Below, in pieces: positions 34,986 through 44,163 of a stretch of DNA of 64,000 nt. The DNA lies in contig CAUYUJ010020580.1 in the NCBI GenBank assembly GCA_963575745.1, positions 90,169 through 154,168 of the forward strand. The letters are read 5' to 3'. Within the stretch, counting starts at the first letter, position 1; every line of letters starts with the position of its first letter. Source of the stretch: Prorocentrum cordatum (taxonomy: Eukaryota; Sar; Dinophyceae; Prorocentrales; Prorocentraceae). Made by a program: the position numbers and the translations under genes. The notes under the pieces are model-generated. The model was not told the DNA's origin and searched no databases. It saw nothing but the letters and a program-made list of their open reading frames with translations.

Positions 34986-35762
34986 TTGAGTACCGCAATT
35001 GTGCATATCTTCTCCTGTGGCGCTCCCTCTGCGAACTGCCTCCTCGACAATTCGCGAGGCCGGAGACCTTGATGCCTGGATGAGACCTACTGTGTGCATG
35101 CAACGAAATGCGGCACGCAGGATCTGGGAAAACACGGGTCGATAAAACCATTGGCCGATGCACGCGTAGTGATAGCGGTGCAAGCGCGGCAACGTCCTAG
35201 GGCGAGCCGAGTGGGTCGACACTCTGGCCCGCAAATCGCCTCCTGAAGAGGCCGTAGTAGTCCGCCGACCCCCGCTTTGCCAAGGGTGCGATGGCGTGTG
35301 AGATGCGCGGCTGCCCCCCCATCTGTTCGCTCGCTCTCCCGGGGCTTCGACATCCAGCTTGAGGGTCGGGTGCCTTCTCCCCCGAAGTCCCCCTCGGCCC
35401 ACCGAACCCATATATACAGTCGAGGCGTTGACCCAAGGAACCCTAAATAAGGAACGAGGTCCCTACTTTCCATCAGTTGAACTTCGATTTCGTATCGCAG
35501 ACCTAAGGAACATCCAAGGCAAGCTGCGAAACAATCAAGGAACACGGAGCCACTCCCCAACGAAAAGGATTCCTTCTTCAGGGCCCCGACTGTATAGACT
35601 CCCCAACTTGCGCTCCGGGATTGCAAAAAGCTCCCGGAAAGCGCCGCGGCCGGCTCCAATGTGCCAGATAAGTCTTGCCTCCCGAAACGTCCCAAGTGGC
35701 CCAAGAGGGGCCGCAATTGCCTCCAAGGATGGCCCCAATATGGCCGTAGAACGCCACACGTA
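34782..35762 (+). repeat. Large tandem duplication, unit 1 (981 bp)
   Basis: Starts at GCTCCAAGAGAAGCCC and ends at GCCACACGTA. Nearly identical to 35763-37024 apart from two insertions and small changes. The empty insertion site of the 164-bp element is the TA at 35167-35168. Confidence 0.9.
35415..35594 (+). mobile_element. Family 3 element, copy 1 (about 180 bp, TA-flanked)
   Basis: Begins TACAGTCGAGGCG and ends GGGCCCCGACTGTA, with TA on both sides. Internal words GTTGACC, AAGGAAC, TTGAACTTCGA and GGTTCCTTCTT-type are shared with copies at 36676 and 47760. No ORF. Confidence 0.72.
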
Positions 35763-36137
35763 GCTCCAAGAGAAGCCCAAAGATGGCCCCAAGAGGGCCC
35801 CGAGAGTTATGTACCAACCTAGGGCTGGGTGGTACATGAGTGCTGGGGCCCTTCTTGGGCCCTCCTGGGATATCCCAAGTCCGTCTTTCGGACCTTTGGG
35901 CCATCTCGGGGCCCTCTTGGGGCCTCTTCTGGTCGAAACATTAGCCTGGCGAAGGACCCCACTATATTGAGTACCGCAATTGTGCATATCTTCTCCTGCG
36001 GCGCTCCCTCTGCGAACTGCCTCCTCGACAATCCGCGAGGCTGGAGGCCTTGATGCCTTGATGAGACCTACTGTGCTCATGCAACGAAGTGCAGCACGCA
36101 GGATCTGGGAGAACATGGGTTAAGAAATGCACGCGTA

Positions 36138-36439: not shown

Positions 36440-36580
36440 CCTTACCTCTCTCCTCCTCCTCCTTCTCCTGCGCCCCCCTCCTCCTCCTGCTCCTCCTCCT
36501 CCCCCTCCTCCTCCTTCTCCTCCTCCTCCTCCTCCTCCTACTCCTCCTCCTCCTCCTCCCCTCCTCCTCCCCCTCCTCCC
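36440..36580. repeat. (TCC)n tract absent from the sister unit
   Basis: Unit 1 reads GGCTGCCCCCCCATCTG at this place; unit 2 has about 140 bp of TCC-rich DNA between GGCTGCCCCC and CCCCATCTG. Confidence 0.92.
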
Positions 36581-36675
36581 CCCATCTGTTCGCTCGCTCT
36601 CCCGGGGCTTCGACATCCAACTTGAGGGTCGGGTGCATTCTCCCCCGAAGTCGCCCTCGGCCCACCGAACCCATA

Positions 36676-36856
36676 TACAGTCGAGGCGTTGACCTAAAGG
36701 AACCCCAAATAAGGAGCGAGGTCCCTATTTTCCATCAGTCGAACTTCGATTTCGTATCGCAGACCTAAGGAACATCCAAGGCAAGCTGCGCAACAATTAA
36801 GGAACACGGAGCCACTCCCCAACGAAAAGGATTCCTTCTTCAGGGCCCCGACTGTA
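36676..36856 (+). mobile_element. Family 3 element, copy 2
   Basis: The counterpart of 35415-35594 in unit 2 of the tandem duplication; same ends and TA flanks. It was duplicated together with its surroundings and did not insert separately. Confidence 0.72.
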
Positions 36857-37024
36857 TAGACTCCCCAACTTGCGCTCCGGGATTGCAAAAAGCTCCCGGA
36901 AAGCGCCGCGGCCGGCTCCAATGTGCCAGATAAGTCTTGCCTCCCGAAACGTCCCAAGTGGCCCAAGAGGGGCCGCAATTGCCTCCAAGGATGGCCCCAA
37001 CATGGCCGTAGAACGCCACACGTA

Positions 37025-37327
37025 GCTCCAAGATGACCTGTGAAACGCACCCCATGCCTCCGAGAGGGTCCAATAGGCACCCAAGAGGCCCCCAAGGTGA
37101 AGCCAAGATGGCCCAAACAATGCCTCGTACGTCCGAGAGGTGACCAGCTGGCCTCCAAGACGGAGCAAAGAAGAGTTCCAAGATGACCTAAGACTGCCAT
37201 CTGTCCAGATGGCCCTGATGAGACTCTGCAAAACGAGCCCGAGACCCTCCGAGGGACCCGAATGATGTCCCAATAGCATCCGCGTGGGCCCCAAGACGAC
37301 CCCTCAAATGACCCCAATAGAGCCTCG
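37025..37327 (-). repeat. CCAAG array, minus orientation
   Basis: CCAAGAGGCCC, CCAAGATGGC and CCAAGACGGA units, less regular than at 25.8 kb, ending at the trinucleotide tracts. Confidence 0.75.
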
Positions 37328-37382: not shown

Positions 37383-37719
37383 TGTTCTCTCCCCCTCCTC
37401 CTCCTCCTCCTCCTCCTCATGCTCCTCCTCCTCCTCCTCCTCCTCCTCCTCCTTCTCCAACTCCTCCTCACTCCACGTCCTCCTCCAACTCGACTTCTTC
37501 TTCCTCCTCCTCCTCCTCCTCCTCCTCCTCCTCCTCCCCCTCCTCCTCCTCCTCCCTCCTCCTCCTCCAGCTCGTCCTCATCCTTCTCCTCACCCTCCTC
37601 CTGCTGCTTGTCGTCGTCGTCGTCGTCGTCGTCTTCGTCGTCGCCGCAATGGTCGGCATCGTCGTCGTCGTCCTCCTCCTCCTCCCCCTCCCTCCTCCTC
37701 CTCCTCCTCCTCCTCCTCC
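37328..37719. repeat. (GTC)n and (TCC)n upstream of the LINE
   Basis: (GTC)n at 37328-37383, TCC-rich DNA to about 37600, a second (GTC)n near 37610-37672, then pure (TCC)n running directly into the spliced leader. Confidence 0.95.
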
Positions 37720-37741
37720 TCCGTAGCCATTTTGGCTCAAG
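37720..37741 (+). other. Dinoflagellate spliced leader sequence
   Basis: All 22 nt of the published dinoflagellate SL are present: T, then CCGTAGCCATTTTGGC, then TCAAG. The next bases are ATG, not the GT donor expected in an SL RNA gene, so this is the SL of a mature trans-spliced mRNA copied into DNA. Its first base cannot be told from the preceding TCC repeat. Confidence 0.97.
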
Positions 37742-37893
37742 ATGTTGTTGTCCCACGGGCAAGAAGTGGATACCTCTAGTCCGAGGCTTGTTCCCGTTTC
37801 AGGCAACCCCAGTCGGGCTGCGCGCTGCTGGGGCCAAGAGACTCATTCCTCGGACACGATTTTGGCAACTCCAGCGGTGTGCCTGCGCGCGCA

Positions 37894-38962
37894 ATGGGGC
37901 GCGGGCGCCAAACCTACACGTGTTGCAAGACCTGCGGTGGCTGGGTCTACGACTGGAAGCTCGAGAGGTCGGGCGGCTGGTGCTACAAGTGCCAAACTGT
38001 ACTCCCAGGTTGGTCGCCACAAGCGCAACGTGTACCGGGTGTCGAAGTCGGCAAGAGCAAGGGCGGCAAGGGGCCTCCCTGGCGTAAGGCGACGGCAGTA
38101 CATGGCTCGCTGGCAGAGCTCAGCAGCATGCGGGAGCGAGTCGAGACACTCACGGCGCAGATGGCCCCTCAAATCGACCTGGGACCAGTCAAAGCGGTGC
38201 AGTCGCAGGTGCAAGCGGCTGCACAGGCCCCCAAGAAGGAGGCCTCTAAGGAGCTGGAGCTGCGGCAGGCGATCAACAAGCTCAACAGGTGCCAGTTGGA
38301 GGTGGAGAGCACGACCTCCACCCTGCAGGAGGCGGAGGAGAAGATCTCGCAGCTGCGCGCCAAGAACGAGAAGGCTATCGGGGATGCGGCAGACGCGATG
38401 CTGGAGCACAAGAGGGCGTTGGCGGCGAACCAGGCGGAGACCGCTTGCCAGCCCCCAGACCCGCCCCAAGCAGAATGGCAGGCACCTGCGGTCGGCGACC
38501 TGTTCGACGACCTGGACGACTACGAGGAGGAGGATAGGATCAAGCTCAAGAAGTTCAAAGCAGACATGGAGGCGCTGGACCAATTGCTCCAGGCTGCGGC
38601 GGGTCAGTTCCGCCAGTTCAGCGAGCTCAAGCAGGAGGCGGCCAGCCTACGGCGGCAGGCCCAGAAGAAGCGCAAGAAGGTTGACGGCACTGGCGGGACC
38701 CAGAAGGGGGTGCAAGAGACGCAGGCTGCTGAGGCTGCAAGCGGCGGCCCAGGACCCGCGGCGGTGCCTGCAGGCGGCACCAGTGGTCAGGCCGCCTGGC
38801 CCCGCAGCAGAACAGGGTCGTGAACGGCAAGAGATCATCGACAAAATCAAGCAGCAGACCGAGCAGAAGGTCCAGGCGGCCAAGGGCAAGGCAACTTCGA
38901 CGTACAAAGAAGTGGTGCTCGGCTCTGACGGTGATGAGCAGCCTGGTGGGTATGGCCTTTAG
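37894..38962 (+). CDS. LINE ORF1, zinc-ribbon and coiled-coil protein
   Basis: Probable nucleic-acid-binding partner of ORF2. ATG at 37894 gives MGRGRQTYTCCKTCGGW; CKTC and CYKC about 20 residues apart form a zinc-ribbon-like pair. From about residue 70 on, the sequence is Glu/Gln/Lys/Ala-rich (ELRQAINKLNRCQLEVEST, LQEAEEKISQLRAKNEK) as in a coiled coil, then acidic (LFDDLDDYEEEDRIKLKKF), then basic (RRQAQKKRKKVDG). The frame as written stops at 38821-38823. In the next frame the coiled-coil style continues (RQEIIDKIKQQTEQKVQAAK) to a stop at 38960-38962, so a 1-bp frame change near 38790 is likely. Role inferred from position and composition. Confidence 0.7.
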
Positions 38963-41354
38963 CATCTTCTCCAACATCACAATGTGGGGGCCCAAGGCCC
39001 ACAAGTTCATTTCGGTAGACGGTAAGCAGAAGGATATCATCATGATGTGCGAGGCGCATGTAGATTGTAACAAGTTGGAGCAGGTGAGGGAGGAGGTATC
39101 CCGCGACGGCTGGAAGTTATCGGGCACAGCAGCGGTGCCCACCAAGCGATCGGAGACAGGAACCTCTGGCGGCGAGTTCATCGTGGCCAAAACCCACCTG
39201 GCCTGCACGGGCTACGATGACCCGTTTAGGGGATTTGCAGCGCTCAATGTCCACGCGCGATCGGGCAACATCATCCTGGTCGCGGCGTACCTGGTCCCAG
39301 GTGAAGGTTTCACAGGGTCGAATTGCCACAGAATTCGATCCCTGTCAGGTTTCGTCAGGTCTCTCACGGATCCTTGGGTGAGCTTGGCTGATTGGAATAT
39401 CCCGCTCGAACATATGGAGAAAGCTGAGCTACCAGGTAGGCTGGGCGGAGTTGTCATCCGCCCAGATATCAGCATCACGTGCGACAAAGGTAAGGGCAGC
39501 CTCATCGATTACGGCATTGCGAGGCTGGATTTCGCGCCCAGGCTCAAGCTATTGGCTGAGGGCCGAGTACCATGGCGCACGCACTGTGGATTGCAGTTGG
39601 TGGTAGAGGGCACTAAGCAGGAGTGGTGGCATCGGCAGGTTGACATCCCGAAGGCACTCCCGCACCAAGGTCGTCCTCAGAAGTTGGCGGACCCAGACTC
39701 GAAGACGAGCAAGAAGAAGCAGGCGGCGCGCCACAGGGTGCAGCACGCATTGGATGAGCACCTGCAGGAGGCCTACGCGGAGGCCATGACGGTGGAGGAG
39801 TCGGCGGCTGACACCCTGATTGGCTCGGTGCCGCCGAAGCCCTACGACATCACGAGCGAGATCTGGGGGCAGGTTAGCTTCGGGGATCACAAGCTGGAAC
39901 TGACGGAGGAGATGCGCATCACAGGTGACAAGATTATCATCAGGAGCGCGAAGCACCAGATGGACGAGTACCAGCTGACGGAGCAATACGGCGCGTGGGT
40001 CGCGAGGGTAGAGGAGGCCCACATCCTGAATGAGCAAATGTACGTTCAGGAGGCGCTGCGGTGTAAGGGGCGCGCGTCAGGATTTGGCATACGATGGATA
40101 CGTGCGAAACCCGCACCAGGACGTGCACGCATGAGATACGGACCAGCAGAGGAATGGAGCATGTTGGCAGCTGATTTGGTTCGATATCAGTCCTTGGTGG
40201 TGAATGGCACTGATGTCAAGCAGCAGAGCATGTGTGTCAAGCGTATCCTCAGGCAGATCGGAGTGCTCAGAGGCATCTCGCACAAGGATGCCCTTAGCAA
40301 GCACGACGCTGAGACCAGCAGCAATATGCACTTCCAAATGGCAGAGGACATTCTAGAATTAGACTTGGGACAGCTGGCAAATCTGGTTGACCAGACGGAG
40401 AGGTACCTGGCCAAGGCATCGTCCAGATCGATGACGACGGCGAGGAAAAGCTTCGCGACTTGGGCGAAGAAGGCCTGGCAGACCAAGGCGGGTATATTGC
40501 ACGGGCACGTCAAGCCGAAGGAGGCACCCAGATACGAGATGGCGATAAGACCAGATTTTGCCACGGCTGACCCAACCATCACCATGCGCTCGAAGGCCAG
40601 TAAATGGGAGACCATTTGGACGGATCCTGTGGATACGCGCACGGACATTATTGAACAGCTGGAGCACACGCGGCGCAGAGCGATACAGGAGGACCTTGAC
40701 CCCATCGACATGGAGATGCTGAACGTTGCTCTGCGTGTTACTGCTGCTTCAAAGGCAAAAGGATTTGATCAACTGGGCCCCACTGACATTGACAGACTCC
40801 CCGCGACGGCGAAGGAAGAGCTGTTATACATACTGCAACGGAGTGAAAGCACGATGGCGTGGCCACGGCAGTTATCGGCGACCAAGTGTGCAATGGTGGC
40901 GAAACCAGGGCCTGCAGCGGGAGATCGCGTGCTAGGCATGCTACCCCTCCCAGTCAAGTTGTGGTCCAGAGCTCGTGGAGGTGTGTGCTCAATGTGGAGT
41001 GCGGGATTATCTGACCACTGGGATACAGCGATCAAGGGCAGTTCGGCACTCAGAACAGGGCTGCTGCGAGCCATATTGGACGAGACGGGGATGGAGATAG
41101 GGGCATCGGCCTTGACGCTTTTGTTAGATATCGAGAAATTCTATGACACGGTCTCCTTGGTGATCTTGATGCAGACAGCTTGCGCGTCAGGATTCCCAGC
41201 AGTCGCTGTGGGGCTGGAAATGGTCATGTTCCTAGAGCCACGGTGTTTACAGGAGCGGTCCGCCATAAGCGAGGCTATATGGCCTACCAGATCGCTGGTG
41301 GCCGGCTCAGCTCGAGGGGTGACATTGACAAAATTGTTCTTCACCCAGTGCTAG
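38955..41354 (+). CDS. LINE ORF2, part 1: APE endonuclease and RT N-terminal half
   Basis: Starts at an ATG overlapping the ORF1 stop (38955-38962); an in-frame ATG at 38934 and a GTG at 38820 also exist. The endonuclease/exonuclease/phosphatase fold is shown by FSNITMWGPKA (Asn), MMCEAH (Glu), VSLADWNIP (Asp-x-Asn), GSLIDYGIAR (Asp) and WRTHCGLQL (His); these nick target DNA. RT follows: KGFDQLGPTDIDRLP, KCAMVAKPG, LLLDIEKFYDTVS (motif A, about 41120-41150) and SLVAGSARGVTLTK (motif B position). The frame then runs into a TAG at 41352-41354. The correct continuation (HPVLELAHRR) is in the next frame, so a frame change lies near 41335-41345. Confidence 0.88.
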   Translation, partial: AFSIFSNITMWGPKAHKFISVDGKQKDIIMMCEAHVDCNKLEQVREEVSRDGWKLSGTAAVPTKRSETGTSGGEFIVAKTHLACTGYDDPFRGFAALNVHARSGNIILVAAYLVPGEGFTGSNCHRIRSLSGFVRSLTDPWVSLADWNIPLEHMEKAELPGRLGGVVIRPDISITCDKGKGSLIDYGIARLDFAPRLKLLAEGRVPWRTHCGLQLVVEGTKQEWWHRQVDIPKALPHQGRPQKLADPDSKTSKKKQAARHRVQHALDEHLQEAYAEAMTVEESAADTLIGSVPPKPYDITSEIWGQVSFGDHKLELTEEMRITGDKIIIRSAKHQMDEYQLTEQYGAWVARVEEAHILNEQMYVQEALRCKGRASGFGIRWIRAKPAPGRARMRYGPAEEWSMLAADLVRYQSLVVNGTDVKQQSMCVKRILRQIGVLRGISHKDALSKHDAETSSNMHFQMAEDILELDLGQLANLVDQTERYLAKASSRSMTTARKSFATWAKKAWQTKAGILHGHVKPKEAPRYEMAIRPDFATADPTITMRSKASKWETIWTDPVDTRTDIIEQLEHTRRRAIQEDLDPIDMEMLNVALRVTAASKAKGFDQLGPTDIDRLPATAKEELLYILQRSESTMAWPRQLSATKCAMVAKPGPAAGDRVLGMLPLPVKLWSRARGGVCSMWSAGLSDHWDTAIKGSSALRTGLLRAILDETGMEIGASALTLLLDIEKFYDTVSLVILMQTACASGFPAVAVGLEMVMFLEPRCLQERSAISEAIWPTRSLVAGSARGVTLTKLFFTQC

Positions 41355-42769
41355 AATTGGCTCATCGGAGGAACCCATCAGCAGGATTATGGGCGTTCGT
41401 TGACGATACGGTGGTCAGATTCGAGGGAAGCGTCGACGCGGTAAGCGAGCAGCTGGTGGAGGTCTCTACTGATATTTGCATGGGACTGGTTAGACAGAGA
41501 ATGACAATATCGGAGAAGACGACAGTGATCGGCTCCGACCTGGAACAAGCGAAGAAGGCAGCGGAGCGATTACTACGTCGAGGTATACCAGCTAAAGCTA
41601 CGGGGGTGGCAACGGACCTGGGGCTGGACACTGCTGGCGGAAGGAAAAGGGTTACGACGAAGAGTAAGCACACACAAGACAAGGCGCGTAAGAGGTTCGC
41701 CATCATTGTCAAGCTTAGGAGAATCGCTGCGCTGAAGAAGGAGTCCAAAGGCCTCTACAATGCGGGGGCGCTGCCACAAGCGATCTGCGGGCAGCAGACC
41801 TTTGGAATGTCCAAGCAGGAGATCGCACAACTTCGTCGCCAGGCTGGCAAAGTGGCAGGAGGTAGTGCAGGAGGACGCTGTCTCACGACCACGCTGGGCA
41901 TGGAGTTGGGGCTTCGCGACCCTGCCGTGGATATTCGTTTGGGCGTGGTACGTGAATGGATTGGTATGTGGCAGAGGTTCCCGCACATTCATCGTCGAGT
42001 TGCTAAGGCGTGGCATGCCATTAAATCAAGGTTACTTCGTTTGGGGGCGAAGCGATGGCGAGCAGCACGTGGACCTACAGGCGCTCTCATTGCCACACTG
42101 ATGGATGCAGGATGGACACCCACGACAGCGACACGGTGGCTTCGCCCTGGAGTGGGTGAGATGGAGATGCGGGAGCTGCCGGCCTCCGAGGACGGCACCT
42201 TTGTCGACGCGGGTTGCTTCGAGGAGCTGCTAGACGACTTGGAGGGCGACCTGAGGAGAGATCTGTGGACGGAGGCCGCCAAGCACGAGTGCGGCGTCAA
42301 CCTGCAGGCGGGCGGCGATCTGTGGCTCATCGTCATGGAGCAGCGGCGGTTCGAGCGCAAGGGTATGCTCGACCAGCTGGCGCTCAACGTGACGGTGGTC
42401 GCTGGCGGCCAGTGGCCGCGAGTCCGTAGCAGTGAAAAAGGATATCAGGTCCCAGTCGAGTGCCCGAGATGTAAAGCCGCCCCCGAAACCTTGAGGCACA
42501 GGATTTGGGGATGTTCTAGTAACACGGAGCACGAGGATTTTACTAAGAGCGAACCTTTAGTAGCTGCAGCACTAGTGCAAGCAGAAGCTGAGCCAGCCTT
42601 ATGGCTGCGTGGCCTTCCCCCGACTCGCCTCACTCACCCCCTCTTCGAGGAAGGGCGTCTGGAGGGGCGGGGGCTCAGGTTGGGCGGGAGGGATGACTTT
42701 GAAGCCTCTCGAGGAAGCGACGGGATTTTAAAGATTTGCGGCGACGGCTCGGGGGGGCGTTTTTTCTGA
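41340..42769 (+). CDS. LINE ORF2, part 2: RT motif C, thumb and CCHC finger
   Basis: Continues part 1 in another frame. WAFVDDTVVRFEGS near 41390-41420 is RT motif C with the two catalytic Asp. The thumb/connection region follows (ADLG-like VATDLGLDTAGGRKR, KRFAIIVKLRRIA, GALPQAICGQQTFGMS). CPRCKAAPETLRHRIWGC at about 42460-42513 is a CX2CX8HX4C zinc finger of the kind found between RT and RNase H in many LINEs. It ends at ILKICGDGSGG, the first RNase H motif, where a homopolymer (GGGGGGG, then TTTTTT) shifts the frame into a TGA at 42767-42769. Confidence 0.87.
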
Positions 42770-44010
42770 TGACCCCAGGCGACGACGCTGCGGGTCTGCT
42801 AGTTGTTCCCTGAGATGGTCCCAGGGTGTGCTGGATTTGCAAGCAGCGTTGTCTCGCCCCCTGCGCGGAGCCCGCCAGACCGTCCCGCGCTCCGAGATCC
42901 AGGCTTTTTGCATGGCCTTAGAGGGGATTTCGGGATCGTTCCTGTCTATAACTGATCATTTATCGGTAGCTCGGAAGTGGCGCAAAACAAATGGAGAACC
43001 CCCGCCCGACAGGGGCTAATGAAGACCTCTGGACCAGGGCCCGAGAGGCCTGGCGCCTCAGGCCAGACACCGCCACTGTCGAAGTACAGTGGGCACCCTC
43101 TCATGCAGATGAATCCCCTGAGCTGCTGGTGGCAGACCAACAGCTAGAGACTGCGGCAGGCAACGCAGCGGCGGATATTTGGGCGAGGGAGGGGGCGGAG
43201 CTGGCGTGGGAGTTCGGGCTGGTGGGGGAAAATCCGCAGACGGACCGAATAGATGCCATCGCCAGTCTTGTGCGACGCCGCGCGAGAAAAACGCTGGCCG
43301 AGTCAGCGAATGTAGAAGTGCAAGCGAAAGGCGAACGCAAGGCTGCTGCCAAGCGATTGCCCGCCAACCTGAAAGCTCGAGCGGTCCGAGAGTCGGCCCA
43401 CAGCATTGTGAAGGCTGGCGCGGGCTGGAGATGCACCGTGTGTGATCAGGTGGCGCCAGGCTCCAGGCTGCTCAAGCTTGCGGCCACCCCTTGCGCAGGC
43501 AGGGCCCTCCCTGAGGGAAGTCGGCCACCCGAGGTCCAGCAGGCCCCCCATAGGTTCGTTTCGGGGGCCCTGGAATTTCATGAGACCCACGCTATGTTTT
43601 ACGTGGACAAGTGGTTTATGCATGCCTGCAGTAAGTGTGGTCGCTTCGCGACAGTGGATGATAGACACATCAGGAAGCGTTGCGAAGGTCTGACCCCTAG
43701 GGGGTCAGAGAATTTGGCGAGAATTCGGAAGGGTGCTTACCCGAGGAGAGAGGGGCCCCCACAAGCCGTTGTGGAAGCAATGGCGGCGCGCGATGGTGAG
43801 AGGGTGTCGTCTCTCGTCGTTCGGTCGTATTCCGAGGGTGCTGCGCCTGGGGGCTCCTCCTCCGACCCTCCCCCACCGCCCATCCCCGCGGAGGCAAGGC
43901 CCGCCGCGCAGGCCAGTCGCGGAGTTCGGAGAGGAGCGGAGGCTCTTCGACGAGAGCCGCCCAATTTTGTTGGGGCGGTGGGAGGAGAGGATTCAGGAAG
44001 TTCAGATTAA
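42770..44010 (+). CDS. LINE ORF2, part 3: RNase H and C-terminal finger
   Basis: After the homopolymer the coding frame continues to a stop at 43017-43019 and then in a third frame (42991-44010). RNase H motifs in order: DGSGG (part 2), SDDPRRRRCG, RSEIQAFCMAL (Glu), SITDHLSVARKW (Asp), VEVQWAPSHADE (His) and ETAAGNAAADIWA (Asp). All four expected acidic positions and the His are present. Beyond it lie WRCTVC and a second finger-like block HACSKCGRFATVDDRHIRKRC, then a Pro/Arg-rich tail to 44010. RNase H removes the RNA strand after first-strand synthesis. The frame change lies between the SITDHLS motif and the His motif. Confidence 0.8.
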
Positions 44011-44079
44011 CCCCTTGTGGGTTAATGGTTTGTGGTTTGTAGGACAGAGGTCCGTTCTCATAGCATTCCCATAGCATTC

Positions 44080-44163
44080 CTCCTCCTCCTCCTCCTCCTC
44101 CTCCTCCTCCTCCTCCCCCTCCTCTTCCTCCTCCTCCTCCTCCTCCTCCTCCTCCTCATCCTC
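44080..44163 (+). repeat. (TCC)n at the LINE 3' end
   Basis: About 28 TCC units, with CCC and TTC variants, directly following the last LINE-specific word AGCATT. Confidence 0.95.

Follow-up and report, generated by a model that had tools for sequence, protein, structure and literature searches.

We report a LINE in the genome of the dinoflagellate Prorocentrum cordatum that has a complete mature spliced leader (SL) of its host as its 5′ terminus. The element lies in the 64 kb window analysed here (64,000 nucleotides, the whole stretch of DNA under study), and comparison with its genomic copies makes it likely, in our judgement, that it represents an APE-type LINE of a dinoflagellate whose replicating RNA is an mRNA trans-spliced by the host, with the SL probably being renewed at the same base.

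The spliced leader and the ends of the element

The 22-nt dinoflagellate SL, TCCGTAGCCATTTTGGCTCAAG, occurs without mismatch at positions 37720–37741 of the forward strand, where it is the sole match with three or fewer mismatches in the whole 64 kb window, and no match was obtained in any of 100 shuffled sequences. This agrees with the first-pass annotation, which had placed a complete SL at the 5′ end of the LINE, and its statement that the next base is the A of an ATG rather than the GT of a donor can be read directly from the junction (CAAG followed by ATG). An SL RNA gene carries the SL exon followed by a GT donor, which is not the arrangement at 37720–37741; the site instead resembles a relict SL, that is, a DNA-encoded SL with no GT donor after it. 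What follows, though, does not come from the mRNA of a host gene, as it would in a retrogene, but is a LINE with endonuclease (EN) and reverse transcriptase (RT) domains.

A TCC microsatellite (37688–37719, +) lies directly 5′ of the SL and constitutes the pyrimidine tract of the target site. The element spans approximately 6.36 kb and stops at about 44080, immediately before another TCC tract (44081–44155, +). Its 3′ end, CATAGCATTCCCATAGCATTCC (44059–44080, +), lacks poly(A) and is common to five relatives, in which the last bases vary and a pyrimidine tract follows. One of these five (C6569) also has flanks in common with the window copy and, on that evidence, is an allele or duplicate of it. 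The 5′ and 3′ ends of the element differ on reading, and terminal repeats are absent. Another copy (C17132) has CCTCCCCTCTGCCCCCT at both sides, which represents a target-site duplication; among the four copies compared, this is the only clear case, the other three being ambiguous because both of their sides are TCC-rich. Similarly, the T or TCC at the end of the tract is also the start of the SL, which leaves the position of the 5′ boundary uncertain by as many as three bases. The defined 3′ end, the target-site duplication and the lack of terminal repeats are the features of a non-LTR element. Just upstream of the LINE, the window also contains a direct repeat of ~457 bp (35315–35771 and 36578–37033) whose two units are 97% identical.

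Coding content

The first open stretch of ORF2 (38820–41354, +) encodes the EN and the N-terminal part of the RT, and the second (41180–42769, +) encodes the C-terminal part of the RT and beyond. The APE-type EN domain is located at 38958–39566 (+), with a profile E-value of 9e-71 from a model whose seed of LINE proteins contained the window element itself. The RT (40749–41773, +) is split by a frameshift, such that the profile matches 40749–41351 and 41222–41773 in two different frames. These are the only EN and RT profile matches in the window, and an APE-like EN in ORF2 with an RT downstream of it is the organization expected of an APE-type LINE. The first-pass annotation described an element that keeps all its domains. 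EN and RT are indeed present, but given that the RT is divided between two frames, the window copy is broken and does not retain intact coding capacity. Farther downstream is a possible RNase H region with a broken frame (42690–43250, +), in which the motifs DGSGG, WAPSHAD and GNAAAD are evident by eye, and where the ORF at 42991–44010 had no Pfam or PDB match.

At E ≤ 0.1, the ORFs of the window gave no Pfam match for either EN or RT. A relative that covers both ORF2 open stretches (P0006) matched PF03372 (EN) at 3.4e-7, above its cut-off, and RVT_1 at 2.2e-4, below the curated cut-off. Eight protein relatives of ORF2 were found in total, all named Prorocentrum cordatum, with 23–94% query coverage and 28–52% identity, and a close search of viral contigs revealed no relative of ORF2.

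ORF1 (37894–38823, +) encodes a Cys-rich N terminus (CCKTC...CYKC) and a region that appears coiled-coil-like by eye. Its relatives are P0012 (75% identity), named P. cordatum, and only one other, P0013 (77%), which comes from a Pyramimonas data set and there probably represents contamination. The first-pass annotation noted the ATG adjoining the SL and proposed that host trans-splicing would serve capping and translation of ORF1. This ATG opens an Arg-rich reading frame of 406 codons (37742–38962, +) that overlaps ORF1 in another frame. We place the start of ORF1 at 37894 because predicted homologues open with residues that match those encoded from this position (P0012, MGRGRQTY..; P0005 and P0007, MPRRQTYT..; P0009, MRKRRTYT..), all of which are gene predictions rather than sequenced proteins. 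The SL-adjacent ATG is, by this comparison, probably not the ORF1 start. The ATG at 37894 lies 152 nt downstream of the SL, in a frame other than that of the ATG at 37742, and is preceded by a stop codon in the ORF1 frame. Although its length changes, the spacing between SL and ORF1 equals 2 mod 3 in 18 of 19 sequences, with the caveat that these cases comprise four lengths (152, 146, 164 and 125 nt) and that 16 of the sequences belong to one family (146 or 164 nt). The ATG beside the SL is itself conserved, and the long frame at 37742–38962 may be an overlapping ORF.

A conserved leader module

The SL is followed by a conserved leader module of 97 nt (37742–37838, +) that starts with ATG and is common to copies with differing downstream sequence. 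An alignment of these 97 nt from 43 copies, selected because their leader is unbroken, has no gaps and a mean column identity of 89%. Codon-position entropy in the leader is flat (0.42/0.48/0.42 in frame 0) and gives no coding signal. Hairpins are predicted for the leader RNA, with weak covariation (1 of 20 predicted pairs exhibits two-sided change), and a search of positions 37600–38100 against Rfam returned no credible match, the one weak lncRNA match (E 0.57) falling below the gathering score.

Three other loci (L028, L030 and L034) have 99–119 nt in common with the window at 87–89% identity, and beyond this segment they show no nucleotide similarity to the window LINE; one leader module is therefore seen in front of differing LINE bodies. 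Either 5′ ends have been exchanged between families, or the leader has been kept far more strongly than the sequence behind it. Further leader groups are evident among the SL loci, including L006/L018/L042 and L004/L039/L043.

Copies of the LINE and their 5′ ends

We searched a 4.13 Gb assembly (G000) for both the SL and the leader. The pattern used for the leader was 26 nt long, excluded the SL and allowed up to two mismatches; it selects copies whose 5′ end has been kept, some of which are haplotig or segmental duplicates. Exactly 100 sites were recovered (51 + 49), compared with none for the reversed control. The SL precedes the leader, with 0–6 mismatches, at 95 of these sites, and a recount gave the identical number. 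In the first batch it was present at 79 of 84 sites (23, 22, 19, 9, 2, 1 and 3 copies with zero to six mismatches, respectively), in the second at 13 of 13 (0–5 mismatches) and in the third at 3 of 3 (1–2 mismatches). Two of the 95 (L088 and L154) carry an SL that is partial or decayed. Among the 79 SL copies of the 84-site batch, 61 have at least 85% pyrimidine in the 40 nt upstream.

The same outcome was obtained in further searches. Relatives with a diverged leader, identified through ORF1 (L057–L060 and L158–L173), carry the SL in 20 of 20 cases with 0–1 mismatches, although L170–L172 stem from a single insertion that was duplicated, as L057/L158 probably do. The 500 nt that follow the SL match at least 40 genomic places (40 of 210 candidates scored). 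Of the 39 considered on their 5′ side (C6875 excepted), 36 start with the SL, the window and the 20 ORF1-identified relatives included; two of the remaining three are unreadable due to a contig end (L055) or a gap (L056), and one (L103) has no SL. The first-pass annotation had staked its reading on such a count of copies, and had proposed that the RNA of the element was trans-spliced and copied back into DNA, SL included. The leader sites and the ORF1 relatives strongly support this proposal.

Sequence shared between copies upstream of the SL was the finding that the first-pass annotation had held would speak against it. L094 and L095 represent one insertion, and L136 and L148 have a diverged flank in common (73% over 84 nt). 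Apart from these and a few other duplicated insertions, flanks match through TCC tracts only, as judged with low-complexity masking (the window/L050 pair by eye). Moreover, the SL decays along with its copy, as its range of mismatches indicates, and therefore belongs to the insertion. In the region of the duplicated insertion L170–L172 (G000:C1381:275085-286700), three LINE starts spaced ~5.8 kb apart have almost identical TCC flanks and one mutated SL in common, an arrangement that perhaps reflects unequal exchange via TCC tracts.

A single SL is present in 88 of the 95 copies, whereas seven carry stacked SLs (L098, L105, L108, L109, L111, L124 and L134). Six of these seven have the form expected if a GTAG acceptor was used, namely SL + CCATTTTGGCTCAAG; the other, L098, repeats the SL plus ATGT and may be a tandem duplication. 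Stacked relicts, which the first-pass annotation recommended looking for, thus occur in the LINE family of the window, and they indicate that some SL-bearing copies have been transcribed, trans-spliced and reinserted.

The stacked copies also bear on the five sites without an SL (L075, L101, L103, L140 and L151). These sites raise the prospect that the SL-bearing copies are dead-on-arrival retrocopies of a few SL-less masters in which an ordinary acceptor precedes the leader, and two of them (L151 and L103), which keep the leader start behind other upstream sequence, could be such source loci. However, the leader itself is interrupted in L075 and L101, and the SL of L140 may have decayed. In addition, each of several leader and ORF1 families would need its own master, and the stacks point to replication of the SL-bearing copies themselves. 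We therefore regard an origin from SL-less masters as unlikely.

Spliced leaders across the assembly

The 21-nt core of the SL occurs exactly 14,218 times in the assembly, whereas its reversed control is absent. Only 76 of these occurrences are followed by GTA, as in SL RNA genes, and 1,202 are part of exact stacks of the form SL + CCATTTTGGCTCAAG. TCCTCC is present 0–6 nt upstream of 2,109 of the 7,017 SLs on the reverse strand; the corresponding forward-strand figure (3,707) was set aside because some sites were listed repeatedly.

With so many exact SLs in the genome, the window junction might be thought to have formed by chance, or by insertion of a LINE beside or into an SL RNA gene or a relict retrogene. 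The presence of the SL before the leader throughout the copies, the A in place of a GT after it, the rarity of GTA genome-wide and flanks that match through TCC tracts only, with a few duplicated insertions excepted, all oppose this explanation, to which we assign a negligible probability. On the basis of the census, the shuffled sequences and the scarcity of GTA, chance and SL RNA gene origins were ruled out.

We also inspected the first 49 exact SL sites in listing order, with none omitted, corresponding to 48 loci (L002–L049). Selection was for an exact SL, and the sites therefore reveal how SLs are used rather than what share of LINEs carries one. When the window is included, 40 of 50 SL sites lie behind a simple repeat or a pyrimidine or purine run, compared with 7.6% of 4,000 random window positions. 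EN profile matches are located downstream in the sense orientation at 19 of the 49 sites, which equate to 18 loci because L040 has two SLs before one EN, and none of the matches listed is antisense; the profile was iterated and seeded with LINE proteins from the same genome. RT profile matches were obtained at 9 of the 49 sites. Pfam, to which 20 of 37 candidate ORFs were submitted, places EN above its cut-off at three more loci (L010, L012 and L029) and below it at L016, L018 and L035. For L002–L009, 1.5 kb of downstream sequence was available, and EN misses there consequently mean little. Since 19 of the 49 sampled SLs precede a LINE EN, taking genomic SLs as a count of retrogenes would result in an overcount in P. 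cordatum.

SL junctions in GGA-, AT- and AC-type repeats (L011, L012, L016, L035, L036, L037 and L049) accompany other leader groups. This association between repeat type and leader group suggests that there are LINE families with different microsatellite targets.

Three further SL-bearing contigs were encountered outside the assembly. An AT-rich, giant-virus-like contig (IMGVR_UViG_3300045993_001077; L001:1936-2913) carries two exact dinoflagellate SLs on its minus strand, the second of which is positioned 45 nt before a GC-richer ORF of 254 amino acids that has AT-rich genes on both sides. This looks like a retrocopy of a host SL-mRNA in a viral genome, the alternative being a chimeric assembly; no second viral contig was found. 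A contig binned as Dehalococcoidia (L156:4334-4354, minus strand) contains an SL followed by GTACG, as in a dinoflagellate SL RNA gene, and is a probable contamination of the MAG. Finally, at the end of another MAG contig (L155:1-60), (TCA)n runs directly into the SL, which provides a microsatellite–SL junction from a different data set.

Renewal or inheritance of the spliced leader

A trans-spliced template does not by itself establish how often the SL is added. The SL could have been captured once and now be element DNA, with transcription from its own first base and inheritance without further trans-splicing. The 88 copies with one SL are compatible with such a history, and an internal promoter like that of L1Tc (Pr77) would serve it, for which the conserved leader directly after the SL offers a possible location. 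Variation within the SL is relevant here, and was assessed in 62 single-SL copies, namely the 84 census rows minus 22 that had no SL or more than five mismatches, were stacked, had an aberrant leader length, or were L095. The second allele stays at or below 0.15 in every SL column, whereas it exceeds 0.20 in 15 of 81 columns of the leader. Among 47 copies with a full-length leader, none of 1,081 pairs has two or more SL changes in common, compared with 9 and 10 such pairs for the two leader windows nearest in variability; changes per copy numbered 1.23 for the SL, versus 1.40 and 1.62 for these windows. Random low-rate leader columns (0.77 changes per copy) yielded 0.13 pairs with two common changes. 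Variation is just as low in the best-conserved leader columns as in the SL, and therefore constraint could replace renewal as the explanation, which is a point in favour of a single capture. Clustering of rare variants (private versus shared) was flat, with a mean z of 0.10 for the SL and 0.05 for the leader, and does not discriminate between the two. A at SL position 6 (9 carriers) is spread more widely than chance (z +2.97).

Overall, these tests favour renewal without proving it. No high-frequency SL change marks a sublineage, and the stacked copies require renewed trans-splicing. Furthermore, the SL heads LINEs with unrelated leaders at different microsatellites, as seen in loci that were selected for the SL and hence document its spread rather than its frequency. 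A single capture is accordingly improbable in our estimation, and renewal remains our preferred reading.

A proposed replication cycle

It is well supported by these comparisons that the template for new copies is trans-spliced LINE RNA, because the SL is present in nearly all leader-bearing copies and in every ORF1-identified relative, and because few genomic SLs continue with GTA. In the cycle that we propose, a chromosomal copy would be transcribed from outside or upstream, and the host spliceosome would join the 22-nt SL to an acceptor immediately before the leader ATG, as the DNA junction indirectly suggests. The SL-bearing RNA would be translated and then copied into DNA by reverse transcription from a nick within a TCC-type microsatellite, a step indicated by the SL junctions, the flanking tracts and the one target-site duplication. 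The resulting new copy would consist of (TCC)n, then the SL, then the element.

During the following round, the CAAG end of the old SL, together with the pyrimidine tract, could act as the acceptor, such that the old SL is cut off and a fresh one is joined at the same base, as the many single-SL copies suggest. If the GTAG inside the old SL were used instead, a stacked relict (SL + CCATTTTGGCTCAAG) would be created. Invariable use of the first AG would make stacks dominant, which they are not. The preponderance of single over stacked copies thus suggests renewal in each round, and replacement of the old SL would provide the element with a constant, host-supplied 5′ end. Renewal of the 5′ end in every round, the target tract forming part of the acceptor, is our preferred, though unproven, interpretation.

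A broader proposal can be made more tentatively, and we hold it to be slightly less probable than even. There may be a class of LINEs whose 5′ ends are not inherited but are renewed each cycle by the SL, with a targeted pyrimidine microsatellite providing the tract and the terminal AG of the old SL serving as acceptor. If this is true, a LINE copy can do without a cap site of its own and without a fixed acceptor, many genomic SL relics are LINE heads and not retrogenes, and the machinery of these LINEs is the long-sought source of mRNA retroposition in dinoflagellates.

Relation to known systems

Slamovits and Keeling (2008) reportedly described dinoflagellate retrogenes with relict DinoSL. 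Such retrogenes, including some with stacked relicts, are covered in the portions consulted of more recent papers (PMC6050394, PMC7245778, PMC3942190). The window element resembles them in its DNA-encoded 5′ SL and in the occurrence of stacked relicts, but differs in that its SL stands before a LINE that encodes both EN and RT, an arrangement repeated in many copies and several families, and not before a host gene. The type of element behind dinoflagellate retroposition is given as unknown, with LTR elements favoured, in the portion consulted of one of these papers (PMC6050394). LINEs that use SL-RNA as template make this question testable.

The ingi/L1Tc-clade LINEs of trypanosomatids offer a second comparison, again from part of the source: the Pr77 hallmark at the 5′ end is common to otherwise different elements, and in L1Tc an internal promoter gives rise to unspliced RNA, with an HDV-like ribozyme also present (PMC8190864). 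Like the window element, these are LINEs in organisms with SL trans-splicing, and a short 5′ sequence is common to different elements. The likeness of the leader to Pr77 is one of analogy, not of sequence. Unlike L1Tc RNA as described there, the RNA copied here appears to have been trans-spliced, and no credible match to a known ribozyme was found at 37600–38100.

In Caenorhabditis elegans, the mRNA of a retroelement, Cer1, can receive an SL, whereas its 8-kb gag-pol RNA is not trans-spliced, according to the sections consulted (PMC3315495); Cer1 is an LTR element and the window element a LINE. SymbioLINE-Dnmt is a dinoflagellate LINE that likewise has EN and RT, but carries a DNMT in ORF1, and the main text of its description contains the term 'spliced leader' nowhere and 'trans-splic' once (PMC5890265). 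The literature searched, to which most subscription journals are external and which was consulted in part, covers LINEs in dinoflagellates as well as SL relicts, both those of host retrogenes and those close to endogenous RNA-virus fragments, and yielded no report of an SL as the 5′ end of a LINE.

SLACS and CZAR are LINEs that insert into SL RNA genes. They share with the window element a physical linkage between a LINE and SL sequence in an SL organism, but here the SL is the end of the element, and its flanks are TCC microsatellites rather than an SL RNA gene. Microsatellite-targeting non-LTR elements insert into simple repeats. Microsatellite targets are also named in a further paper (PMC4640811). 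The window element differs from them in its 5′ SL, and its target tract may double as the pyrimidine tract of an acceptor. LINEs must keep their 5′ ends, and the known solutions include internal promoters and ribozymes; in the present case, it is the host trans-spliceosome that appears to supply the 5′ end of the LINE.
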